Virus record (IMG/VR): IMGVR_UViG_3300044630_001933
Location: 1-32,302 of that record
Direction: 5' to 3' (one strand)
DNA from: a virus
Length of the DNA: 32,302 nucleotides
Positions 24,255 through 30,759 of the stretch are shown in pieces. Each line of letters opens with the position of its first letter. Position 1 is the stretch's first letter. The position numbers and the translations under genes are program-made. The notes beneath the pieces were generated by a model. The model had not been told where the DNA came from, did not search any database, and was given only the letters and a program-made list of their open reading frames with translations.

Positions 24255-24367
24255 GGGTGGCTCCTTGGGGCGGCGGTTTATCCTTCGACCAATGCCCCGA
24301 ATCTAGCCAAAAAACTCAAGGGTGGAAGCTCGAAGTAGCTCCGAGCGGAAGCCCTTAAGTGAGCTAC
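24255..24367 (+). ncRNA. Candidate structured RNA with pseudoknot before the initiator gene
   Basis: The gap between rusA and the initiator can fold into two domains. First: TGGCT (24258-24262) with AGCCA (24305-24309), enclosing GGGGC (24267-24271) with GCCCC (24294-24298) and an inner GGT/ACC. Second: AAGGG (24318-24322) with CCCTT (24352-24356), enclosing GCTCG (24328-24332) with CGAGC (24342-24346). The nine-base loop of the second contains GTAGCTC (24335-24341), exactly complementary to GAGCTAC (24361-24367), four bases before ATG 24371. This could control translation of the initiator or act as an independent RNA. Confidence 0.55.
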
Positions 24368-24370
24368 ATC

Positions 24371-25297
24371 ATGAGAAAAGATAACCTAGACGCCAATGCG
24401 TCATTAAAAACATCTACTCCTATTGGCTGGTACAAATGGTACAGCCGTGACTTCTGGGCATCTATGACCGTTCGGTCAATGTCACCAATAGCCCGAAGCA
24501 TTTACCGTGACCTCCTAGACGTTCAGTTTGAGCATGGTTGCCTTCCACCCAAAGAAAGATTCATGCGGGCTTTGGGATGGTCTGAAACAGACTGGCAAGA
24601 GTTCGAGCCATATCTTGAAGAGTGCTTCCCTAATGGCATGAATCCAAAGATGGATGAGATTCGCCAACAAGCTATTGAGGATCGTGAGAAGCAAATACGA
24701 GCCGGAAAGAAATCGGGTGAAGCACGTTCAATCGTGGGAAAATCTGAACCTAAAACGAACACCCGTTCAACGGATGTTCAACGCACGTTCAACGGATGTT
24801 CAACGGATGTTCAACAAGTGTTGAACCAAACAGAAACAGAAACAGAAACAGAAACAGAAACAGAAACAACTAAAGTTAAGAAGGATGCTGACGCACCTTC
24901 CTCTCGAAAGGGAAAGGTGGATTTTCTCTCTTTGGCTCAAGAGGCGGGATTCGAGGATGATATGTTCCTCAAGGCTTGGAGCGAGTTTGTCGAGCATCGA
25001 AGGGAGATTAAACACCCCATGAGCGAGAGGGCCGCCAACTTAATTCTTGCCAAGCTCAAGAAGTTCTCGGTGGAGGTTGGGGTGGAAGCTATGAACCGCT
25101 CAATCTCTAGCGGGTGGCGGGATGTATTCCCAGAGAAGGCAAACCAGCGGGTAGGAGTGAAAGGTAGACCATCAAGGATGGGTTCAGCCCTTGAGTACAT
25201 GGCGAGCAATAGGGATAATGTCCAAGAGCCAGAGTACTTCAACGCTGAGTTTAAGGAGATAATATTAAAGCGACAGAAGGCTCTGGAGGGCAAATAA
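24371..25297 (+). CDS. Replication initiator-like protein (DUF1376 type) with internal origin
   Basis: Probably binds the phage origin and starts replication. The first 110 residues are of DUF1376 type: YKWYSRDFWASMTVRSMSPI, ARSIYRDLLDVQFEHGCLPP. A low-complexity linker follows that encodes the 11-bp DNA repeats (two STDVQ segments) and a run of ET pairs. The C-terminal 130 residues (FLSLAQEAGFEDDMFLKAW) are like those of phage replication organisers. As in lambda O, the origin repeats lie in the linker between DNA-binding and partner-binding parts. ATG 24371 is chosen; a GTG at 24359 is in frame but lies in the candidate pseudoknot. The gene overlaps the next by one base. Confidence 0.8.
   Translation: MRKDNLDANASLKTSTPIGWYKWYSRDFWASMTVRSMSPIARSIYRDLLDVQFEHGCLPPKERFMRALGWSETDWQEFEPYLEECFPNGMNPKMDEIRQQAIEDREKQIRAGKKSGEARSIVGKSEPKTNTRSTDVQRTFNGCSTDVQQVLNQTETETETETETETTKVKKDADAPSSRKGKVDFLSLAQEAGFEDDMFLKAWSEFVEHRREIKHPMSERAANLILAKLKKFSVEVGVEAMNRSISSGWRDVFPEKANQRVGVKGRPSRMGSALEYMASNRDNVQEPEYFNAEFKEIILKRQKALEGK
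24765..24826 (+). repeat. Five 11-bp iterons plus inverted copy: candidate replication origin
   Basis: GTTCAAC occurs at 24765, 24776, 24787, 24798 and 24809, spaced exactly 11 bp; three units read GTTCAACGGAT in full. The fifth is followed by AAGT and the inverted GTTGAAC (24820-24826), making a perfect dyad. An isolated GTTCAA also occurs at 24726. Because 11 is not a multiple of three, the repeats are not a protein repeat but are conserved as DNA, as expected of initiator binding sites. Confidence 0.82.
24831..24866 (+). repeat. Six CAGAAA hexamers beside the iterons, possible unwinding element
   Basis: Six tandem CAGAAA units directly downstream of the iterons, encoding alternating E and T. 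One strand is almost all purine with only C as interruption. The place beside the iterons fits a region that melts first at an origin, but it could also be a simple linker repeat. Confidence 0.6.
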
Positions 25298-28105: not shown

Positions 28106-28111
28106 TATAGT
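28106..28111 (+). promoter_or_regulatory. Likely -10 of the lysin promoter
   Basis: TATAGT ends seven bases before ATG 28119, and no ribosome site precedes that ATG. The -35 is poor. If used, the transcript would start at the start codon and be leaderless. Confidence 0.45.
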
Positions 28112-28118
28112 GGTTCCC

Positions 28119-28655
28119 ATGAATAACGCCCAAGCAATTACCGAGGTTCGAGCCATCTTGAATCGGCGTTATCAGAATTACAACCAGCTTCCCAACCCAG
28201 AGCGGGTACTTTTAGCCGCCGCCGTTCTTGCTGATGACATCCAAGTTAGAGAGGTTGGCGGGAATAATAAGGGAGAATGGGTTGAGGCGATTTTAGAGGG
28301 TGTCAAGCTCGGAGAAGGTTATCCTTGGTGTGCCGCCTTCATTGAGTTTTGTTGCGATATAGCTGGCTTTACTGCTGGCCCCACCGACCGAGCCTCTGCC
28401 GCCGTTGATTCATGGCTGACGTGGGCAAGGATGGAAGGGCGGGTAACAAGCAATCCCAAGCGTGGAGACTTATGCCTCTGGAAGCGTTCAACGGGTAACC
28501 ATATTGGTATAGTCACCGATTTGACGATCACGAGCGTGATGAGCATTGAGGGCAACACCACGCCGGGGGCTACGGGCAACCAGCGAGACGGTGGAGGGTG
28601 CTATCGACGTACACGCCTCAGAAACTCTTGGACGCATTATATTTCACTAGGATAA
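28119..28655 (+). CDS. Endolysin, CHAP-like peptidoglycan peptidase
   Basis: Cuts the host wall at lysis. The 178-residue protein has a CHAP-type core: GEGYPWCAAFIEFCCDIAGF with the likely catalytic C71, PKRGDLCLWKRSTGNHIGIV with H128, then VMSIEGNTTPG, where the third residue of the triad lies. No signal peptide is visible, so a holin is needed for release; the next gene is a candidate. ATG 28119 is favoured over GTG 28110 because TATAGT would place the transcript start there. First gene of the operon after the divergent control region. Confidence 0.84.
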   Translation: MNNAQAITEVRAILNRRYQNYNQLPNPERVLLAAAVLADDIQVREVGGNNKGEWVEAILEGVKLGEGYPWCAAFIEFCCDIAGFTAGPTDRASAAVDSWLTWARMEGRVTSNPKRGDLCLWKRSTGNHIGIVTDLTITSVMSIEGNTTPGATGNQRDGGGCYRRTRLRNSWTHYISLG

Positions 28656-28659
28656 TCTT

Positions 28660-28890
28660 ATGGCAACCGAACCACCAAGTAACGACTTTTTTACCGGCTT
28701 ATCTGGCTTTCTCTCAAGCACCTTCGGCTGGTTATCAACCGTTATTCTAGGCATCTTCGGGGGTGGCAAATTGCACCAAAGAATAGTACAGCTTGAGAAG
28801 GATTCGGAGGGGTTAAGCGGTCTCGCCGTTCAAGTTGCAAAGATAGAGGCGAAGATTGACATTCTCCTCGACGACCGTAAACGGGGGTAA
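28660..28890 (+). CDS. Holin-like small membrane protein (76 aa)
   Basis: An N-terminal membrane span (TGLSGFLSSTFGWLSTVILG) is followed by a glycine turn and a coiled coil (LHQRIVQLEKDSEGLSGLAV, IEAKIDILLDDRK). This is the reverse order of XhlA-like proteins. Its place after the endolysin suggests a holin or another lysis protein. AGGA stands seven bases before the ATG. The TAA stop is followed in the same frame by the open metallophosphoesterase frame, so stop-codon readthrough would fuse the two. Confidence 0.6.
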   Translation: MATEPPSNDFFTGLSGFLSSTFGWLSTVILGIFGGGKLHQRIVQLEKDSEGLSGLAVQVAKIEAKIDILLDDRKRG

Positions 28891-28893
28891 CCC

Positions 28894-29757
28894 ATTAACA
28901 ATATCAAGACCACTCTTGAGATAAACGCAAACCAGCCAAAAGCTCGACTAGGGTTACTATCAGACCTTCACTTTGGAGCCTCTTGCATGGTCAAGCCAGC
29001 ACTCAAGTACGACCTCGAGAGAATGGCTGCTAGCAACTGCCGAATCGGGATAAACGGGGATGTATTCGACTTCATTCTACCGAGCGACCTTAAACGCTTT
29101 GACCTCGACGCTCTTGATCGTGAACTACTCCAAGGAGGACTTAAGCCGATTGATGCGGCAATCGAGATGGCTTACGAGTTCTTGAAGCCCTATGCCCACC
29201 TCATCGAGTTTATAGGCATCGGCAATCACGAAGCCCACGTCTCCAAGAGGCATCATATAGACGTGATGTCTATCCTTCTCTACCGTCTCAACCAGCTACC
29301 TAATGTCGATATTAAGGCGGGCGGTTGGTGCGGGTACTGGAACGTGACACTCAAGAGGCAAACCCGCTTAACGAACTTCTTGATGTACAGACACCACGGG
29401 GCGGGCGGGGCGGCTCCAGTTACTAAGGGAATCATTGACTTTCAACGTATGTTAGCTTGGCAAGGAGACATAGACGCCCTCTGGATTGGACACAAGCATA
29501 ATAAATTCGTTGATCTCGCCACCAAGATGGAATACCGCACCAAGAGGAACGAGGCGAGAACCAAGCAAGTCACTTGTATTATGACTGGCTCATACCTCAG
29601 CACCTACGGAACCGAGGCGGGTACGAATCCAAGCTATGCCCAAGCGTGGAATCTTGCCCCTCAACAGTTTGGAGGGGTTATACTTGAATTGTCACAGAGA
29701 GAGTTTTATGTCGGCAAAGAGCAAACAGTTACCGTACAATGTACGGCTATCTTGTAG
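28894..29757 (+). CDS. Calcineurin-like metallophosphoesterase (start uncertain)
   Basis: Two-metal phosphoesterase with all family motifs: SDLHFGAS (D-x-H, at 28963-28971), INGDVFDF, IGIGNHEAH, YRHHGAGG and WIGHKHNKF. The first ATG in the frame, 28987, would lose the D-x-H motif that binds the first metal. The frame is open back to the TAA of the previous gene and has no ATG, GTG or TTG before the motif. I therefore place the start provisionally at ATT 28894; readthrough of the TAA at 28888 is the alternative. The substrate is unknown; roles could include DNA, RNA or nucleotide cleavage. Confidence 0.76.
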   Translation: MNNIKTTLEINANQPKARLGLLSDLHFGASCMVKPALKYDLERMAASNCRIGINGDVFDFILPSDLKRFDLDALDRELLQGGLKPIDAAIEMAYEFLKPYAHLIEFIGIGNHEAHVSKRHHIDVMSILLYRLNQLPNVDIKAGGWCGYWNVTLKRQTRLTNFLMYRHHGAGGAAPVTKGIIDFQRMLAWQGDIDALWIGHKHNKFVDLATKMEYRTKRNEARTKQVTCIMTGSYLSTYGTEAGTNPSYAQAWNLAPQQFGGVILELSQREFYVGKEQTVTVQCTAIL

Positions 29758-29766
29758 AATTATTTT

Positions 29767-30759
29767 ATGGAGTTAATAAGAGCACCGTTTCCGTGGTTCG
29801 GAGGCAAGGCGAGGGTGGCAAGTTTGATATGGGATAGGCTAGGGTGGGATATTGGAACCTACGTTGAGCCGTTTGCGGGGTCGTGTGCGGTTGCACTAAA
29901 TCGACCCGATAAATTTAAGGGGTGGATTACTCTTAATGATATTGATGGGAATATCTCTAACTTTTGGCGAGCAATGGAGCAAGCACCCGAAGAGGTAGCT
30001 ATTCACGCCTCAAGCCCAGTCAATGAGTGCGACTTACACGCTCGGCATTTATGGTTAGTTAACAACGCTCAAAAGCTAACATCACGGCTTATGGCTGACC
30101 CCGACTACTTCGAGCCTAAAACTGCGGGCTGGTGGGCGTGGGGCTTATGCCTTTGGATTGGTGGCGGTTGGTGTAGTGGTCAAGGTGGCTGGATGGCTCA
30201 AGAGGATGAGGAAGGTATTCATGCATTGGTTGCTTTAGGCAATGGTGGGCAAGGAGTAGCTAGGCAGTTACCGCACTTAGGCGATGGTGGGCAAGGAGTA
30301 GCTAGAAAGTTACCGCACTTAGGCGATGGTGGGAAAGAGGCTCAAAGACTTGAGTTTCTTAATACATGGTTCGCTAAACTCTCAGACTTGCTTCACGATT
30401 CCCGTACTTGTTGCGGAAGCTGGGAGCGAGTTTTATCAATTGGAACAATTACACGGAACGGAATAGCGGGGGTACTTCTTGACCCGCCGTACAGCTTGAC
30501 CGATGCAGTTTACACTCATGATTCCAAAAGCATCTCTGGAGAAGTTCGGGAGTGGGCGTTAGCCAATGGAGAAAACCCACTTCTTAGAATTGCTCTTTGT
30601 GGGCATACGGCAGAAGGGCATGAGATACTTGAGTCTCACGGGTGGAAAGTTGCAAAGTGGAATTCAAGCGGGTATCAAGGTGGAGACGACCGAGAACGTA
30701 TCTGGTTTAGCCCTCATTGCATCTCTCCAGAGATGGGTGGACTATTCCAAGATGTATAA
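29767..30759 (+). CDS. dam: DNA adenine methylase, Dam (D12) type
   Basis: Adds methyl groups to adenine in DNA, probably to protect phage DNA. It has PFPWFGGKAR near the start, EPFAGS (34-39) for the methyl donor, and the catalytic DPPYS (239-243). Residues 157-189 hold a tandem repeat of a 14-residue unit (LGNGGQGVARQLPH, LGDGGQGVARKLPH, LGDGG) inserted between the binding and catalytic motifs. At 330 residues it is longer than the usual 270-280. A TAGAAT -10-like box lies six bases before the ATG with no ribosome site, another possible leaderless start. It may act with the Mom-like protein. Confidence 0.88.
   Translation: MELIRAPFPWFGGKARVASLIWDRLGWDIGTYVEPFAGSCAVALNRPDKFKGWITLNDIDGNISNFWRAMEQAPEEVAIHASSPVNECDLHARHLWLVNNAQKLTSRLMADPDYFEPKTAGWWAWGLCLWIGGGWCSGQGGWMAQEDEEGIHALVALGNGGQGVARQLPHLGDGGQGVARKLPHLGDGGKEAQRLEFLNTWFAKLSDLLHDSRTCCGSWERVLSIGTITRNGIAGVLLDPPYSLTDAVYTHDSKSISGEVREWALANGENPLLRIALCGHTAEGHEILESHGWKVAKWNSSGYQGGDDRERIWFSPHCISPEMGGLFQDV
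30235..30333 (+). repeat. 42-bp tandem repeats inside the methylase gene
   Basis: Two full 42-bp units (30235-30276 and 30277-30318) plus a partial third, encoding the glycine-rich 14-residue unit. They are in frame, so changes in copy number would lengthen or shorten the loop without breaking the gene. Confidence 0.85.

Follow-up and report, generated by a model that had tools for sequence, protein, structure and literature searches.

The window analysed here is the whole stretch of 32,302 bases of a virus record (IMG/VR IMGVR_UViG_3300044630_001933, positions 1-32,302). The upstream gene of its lysis cassette encodes a CHAP-domain endolysin on the plus strand (28110-28655; Pfam CHAP, E = 5e-8; PHROG endolysin, E = 1.7e-18). 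A small open reading frame follows on the same strand (28660-28890), whose 76-amino-acid product has one apparent membrane segment and no match in Pfam or PHROG; "holin-like" is an unproven label for it, given by position only. Its TAA stop (28888-28890) is overlapped by a G-rich, Shine-Dalgarno-like core, GGGGGT (28883-28888, plus strand), and is followed by CCC (28891-28893) and by ATT (28894-28896), the putative start codon of a calcineurin-like metallophosphoesterase gene (28894-29757, plus strand; 287 amino acids if started at ATT). The codons after the TAA read CCC ATT AAC AAT ATC AAG ACC ACT CTT GAG ATA ... GAC CTT CAC, the last three being the first metal-binding motif D-L-H (28963-28971; D at 28963-28965, H at 28969-28971), residues 25-27 counted from CCC. 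As the earlier note had stated, the phosphoesterase frame is open back to the TAA, is the same as that of the small gene, and contains no ATG, GTG or TTG before this motif; the first canonical start in the open reading frame is an internal ATG (28987-28989), which lies beyond the motif. In relatives, too, the small open reading frame adjoins the phosphoesterase. The next gene (29767-30759) encodes a D12-type DNA methyltransferase and contains a 42-bp tandem repeat of 2.5 copies (30235-30337) that encodes repeated GDGGQGVARKLPHL units.

Elsewhere in the window, the large terminase (2-1294) had as nearest phage records the Microcystis phages Mae-JY24 and Mwe-Yong1318-1, at 48 % identity, and at the DNA level positions 8000-32302 matched none of the phage records in the collection searched. 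Two adjacent tandem arrays, of an 11/22-bp unit GTTCAACGGAT and of the 6-bp unit AAACAG, occupy 24764-24868 in the gene 24359-25297 and give a linker of the TETETETETE type. The two contig ends (1-718 and 31585-32302) both carry the 5' part of the large terminase gene; the copies share 93 % identity, being exact at both edges and having 52 mostly synonymous mismatches in the middle. A genuine terminal repeat seems less likely here than a circular map on which the assembly has joined variants of different strains.

The window protein matched PHROG 7339, "DNA repair exonuclease" (E = 2.7e-16), and alone gave no Pfam match; 31 of the 47 family members matched Metallophos (PF00149). All five metal-site motifs (D-x-H, GD, GNH, H, GHxH) are present in it, and D25, H27, G56-D57, G111-N112-H113, H169, G200-H201 and H203 are invariant in the 47 sequences. 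An AlphaFold model of the 288 codons based on these sequences was confident (pLDDT 89.2, pTM 0.89) and was used instead of an earlier, poor model built on 11 sequences (pLDDT 65.8). The predicted first two strands, residues 5-10 and 17-23, lead into D25-L-H27. The best solved fold was DP1, the exonuclease subunit of archaeal PolD: from residue 4 of the modelled protein onwards, 217 residues align with a Z of 17.6, an rmsd of 3.0 and 18 % identity. LpxH and Mre11 came next with Z about 14, the three together ranging over Z 13-18. By its motifs and predicted fold, the protein is a calcineurin-like metallophosphoesterase. The 3'-5' exonuclease subunit DP1 is its closest solved fold, but DP1 is the proofreading subunit of an archaeal replicase and has extra domains, and the same fold does not mean the same function.

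Searches of IMG/VR yielded 19 loci with the protein and 75 with a profile. Fourteen related junctions, on 13 viral contigs in which the region is complete, share the layout of the window: G-rich Shine-Dalgarno sequence, small-gene stop codon, CCC and ATT/ATC, in this order. One sister contig (G002) accounts for two of these junctions with two different phosphoesterase copies near its ends (L009 and L012), comparable to the differing terminase copies at the ends of the window. The 14 junctions comprise 12 distinct sequences besides the window, with 75-99 % protein identity; at the DNA level they are about 66-91 % identical to the window (66 % in L014). ATT or ATC stands at the start codon in 15 of 15 clade junctions, window included. 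Among the 13 distinct sequences, which amount to about three lineages (the window group, L013, and L014/L016) because the ten closest are of recent common ancestry, the start codon is ATT in five and ATC in eight, while the stop of the small gene, present in every clade member, is TAA in eight, TAG in two and TGA in three. At least five changes between ATT and ATC occurred within the clade and none to ATG, GTG or TTG, and a scan of IMG/VR for the junction with one of these three codons in place of ATT/ATC found none. The sole canonical start before D-x-H in the clade is a GTG seven codons ahead of the motif in L014; it is not conserved, the sister L016 having GTA there. ATA was seen in some sequence at 15 of 16 other conserved isoleucine codons and never at the start codon, a difference within chance. 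The trees place L018 uncertainly and leave one or two origins for the ATT/ATC start; the CAGGGGTGACCCATC shared by L013 and L014/L016 favours a single one.

With the codon usage of this phage, 24 codons would be free of ATG, GTG and TTG in about 30 % of cases; the absence alone is therefore weak evidence, and comparison must decide. That each of the 14 related junctions also lacks these codons, apart from the GTG of L014, and has ATT or ATC in this place is more than chance. Among about 75 relatives examined, the ones outside the clade that could be aligned here carry a normal start at the same distance from D-x-H, namely TTG in L018, L037, L038, L039 and L042 (66-77 % identity) and ATG in L019, L040 and L041 (about 51-59 %). 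L040 has the clade layout with an ordinary start, GGGG-TAG-TGC-ATG. By homology to these codons 28894 is the start site, and the start at ATT that had been suggested from the window alone is strongly supported by the alignment. The note had also held that a normal ATG at this position in relatives would speak against ATT; such relatives exist, outside the clade only, and they confirm the position of the start rather than refute ATT. As far as sequence comparison reaches, the start site and its conservation are established.

The junction pattern with ATH returned only phosphoesterase loci and two chance matches in unrelated genes (L031, L033), scans using the small upstream protein added no junctions of the clade, and a scan of genome contigs gave one distant match only (L093). 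A genome-wide search for genes with a conserved part well before the first canonical start revealed no second clear case among the matches listed; this search is noisy, as close relatives match in all frames, and was judged on genes with distant relatives. A distant phosphoesterase on a single contig (L092:2934-3010, 28 % identity) has no ATG, GTG or TTG before its D-F-H motif; an AAGGAG seven bases ahead of an ACG points to an ACG start there, or to an error in the sequence.

The duplex of GGGGGU with the 16S rRNA 3' end has a calculated energy of -9.9 kcal/mol, which among random 20-mers from the window lies near the 1st percentile, and leaves five bases to the ATT; a normal anti-Shine-Dalgarno sequence and a normal IF3 were assumed for the host. 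In L013, L014 and L016 the sequence is AGGGGU (-6.6 kcal/mol), and GGGGT is conserved in 13 of 13 distinct sequences. With the upstream stop three bases before ATT and the Shine-Dalgarno sequence overlapping the end of the small gene, the junction layout would be typical of translational coupling. None of the 13 distinct sequences departs from CCC in the spacer, whereas the seven conserved proline codons of the gene all vary and, of its 58 conserved four-fold codons, only 4 keep the same three bases throughout this set. That GGG and CCC are fixed on either side of the stop is suggestive of an RNA-level role, either in spacing or through a small hairpin whose loop holds the stop; the chance for the invariance of CCC alone is about 7 %. 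The predicted RNA fold of 28850-28960 did not stand out (z -1.3), its long helix pairing non-conserved bases, and neither Rfam families nor tRNA/tmRNA were found in the window. A more elaborate design appears unlikely, in which GGG-stop-CCC-AUY is a dedicated switch and timing device, the hairpin hiding the Shine-Dalgarno sequence until upstream termination and AUY tying output to host IF3 or to the translation state of the lysis genes.

Were the true product to start at the internal ATG 28987, it would lack D-x-H and be an inactive or regulatory form. All 13 distinct sequences of the clade keep that ATG, and it comes with a modest Shine-Dalgarno sequence, TGGAGC (-5.6 kcal/mol); as a minor start it could yield some short form without the first metal motif. 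Against it as the main start, the codons upstream are under purifying selection across the clade: for codons 2-31 of window and L006, dN was 0.07 and dS 0.87, synonymous sites are saturated towards L013 and L014 with the protein still similar, and Asn-Asn-Ile or Lys-Asn-Ile and the following strand are kept among relatives. Such selection ahead of the first ATG indicates that this region is translated, and on codon comparison it is coding. In the predicted structure a start at 28987 would remove two core beta strands and the first metal ligands, among them D25 and H27, neither of which varies in the 47 sequences, and L019 has Leu instead of Met at that position. We regard this start as very improbable, and still less can be said for initiation in another frame with a programmed shift ahead of D-x-H: no support for a shift was found, both other frames are broken by stops in the stretch, and L018, L019 and L040 need none.

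Readthrough of the small gene's stop, by which a membrane-anchored phosphoesterase fusion would be made alongside the short protein, is improbable as well. Throughout the clade and in L040 the two genes share one frame with a single codon between the stop and ATY, the Pro-Ile after the stop is conserved, and ATT and ATC are synonymous isoleucine codons, as elongation through the stop would also predict, a point that counts against an AUU/AUC start. On the other hand, every clade member retains a stop, each of the three stop codons being used by some of them, the proline codon is frozen in its nucleotides, and a strong Shine-Dalgarno sequence stands exactly where an independent start needs one. 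A fusion would keep the genes in frame wherever the pair occurs; in L018 and L019 the frames differ, and the phosphoesterase begins at a TTG or ATG of its own. The earlier note's fusion protein is thus disfavoured. Its third proposal, a base change disrupting one longer gene, and its concern about a read error at the TAA are excluded by conservation of the junction in 13 other contigs. Although the imperfect repeats at the contig ends point to strain mixing in the assembly, these contigs carry both ATT and ATC variants at about 66-91 % DNA identity, and the loss of an ordinary start or a fused gene through faulty sequencing or assembly, or through recent mutation, has a negligible probability.

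The reading we prefer, with a probability of roughly 0.86 on sequence evidence, is that translation of the phosphoesterase starts at ATT 28894 (ATC in sister phages), placed by the Shine-Dalgarno sequence and probably coupled to the upstream stop, and that expression is limited in this way. The gene has no canonical start before an essential part; a rare codon stands where its homologues have their normal start, and that codon is conserved together with a properly spaced Shine-Dalgarno sequence. The initiator fMet-tRNA would read AUU or AUC at 28894, and the strong G-rich Shine-Dalgarno sequence at the end of the small gene would position the ribosome. A ribosome that has just stopped at the TAA three bases upstream would probably help by coupled reinitiation. 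The weak start codon may hold down the amount of enzyme, as such codons do for infC, pcnB and S. aureus cvfC1, with low yield and control by IF3 as the presumed consequences; a possible reason for scarcity is harm by a nuclease-like phosphoesterase. At least five ATT/ATC changes, never to ATG, at DNA identities down to 66 % suggest either that the phages retain a weak start or that a stronger one would do harm.

Starts of this kind are uncommon but already known in bacteria for keeping a protein scarce, and the case of this family of uncultured phages appears to be a conserved one. The infC gene starts with ATT in E. coli and ATC in Streptomyces (PMC5472188). It resembles the phage gene in its conserved AUU/AUC start, for which an efficiency below that of AUG is expected and against which IF3 discriminates, as it would in the phage gene too (a 3-15 fold rise is cited in PMC5472188 for E. 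coli infC fidelity mutants); it differs in that infC encodes IF3 and autoregulates, while the phage phosphoesterase is without a known feedback on IF3. In E. coli, pcnB starts at AUU as does infC (PMC1780047), a finding credited to Binns and Masters 2002 where it is cited in PMC1780047 and PMC13009471; as described there, its AUU start limits the expression of an enzyme, as the phage start would, but pcnB is chromosomal and the phosphoesterase phage-borne. In S. aureus, cvfC1 (AUU) and ccpN (AUA) have starts that are conserved among relatives and combined with a strong Shine-Dalgarno sequence, and reporters gave about 10 % of the AUG yield in poor medium (PMC13009471). The pairing of a conserved non-canonical start with a strong Shine-Dalgarno sequence is common to these genes and the phage gene, but the former are bacterial and known by experiment and cvfC1 is first in its operon, whereas the phage gene lies downstream of another and its start is deduced. 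Streptomyces sigR starts at GTC (PMC5472188), a rare start also kept for a low protein level, with another codon and a regulatory ratio to the anti-sigma factor. The mycobacteriophage A10ZJ24 metallophosphoesterase Gp48 damages host DNA and is toxic to the host (PMC12287305). It is likened to the present enzyme by description, and its toxicity is a possible reason for rationing such phage metallophosphoesterases. A literature search of partial coverage brought up no description of an AUU/AUC start in a phage gene, and no priority is claimed.

Few starts besides AUG, GUG and UUG are well characterised in bacteria. Standard gene finders would trim the phosphoesterase to a shortened, inactive form without the first metal site. 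The AUU/AUC codon is kept through saturated synonymous divergence, with the TTG and ATG cousins as natural controls, and such starts can be found by comparing metagenomic viruses, without experiments. The phage lineage is a compact system in which to study the retention of weak starts and their interplay with a strong Shine-Dalgarno sequence near an upstream stop.
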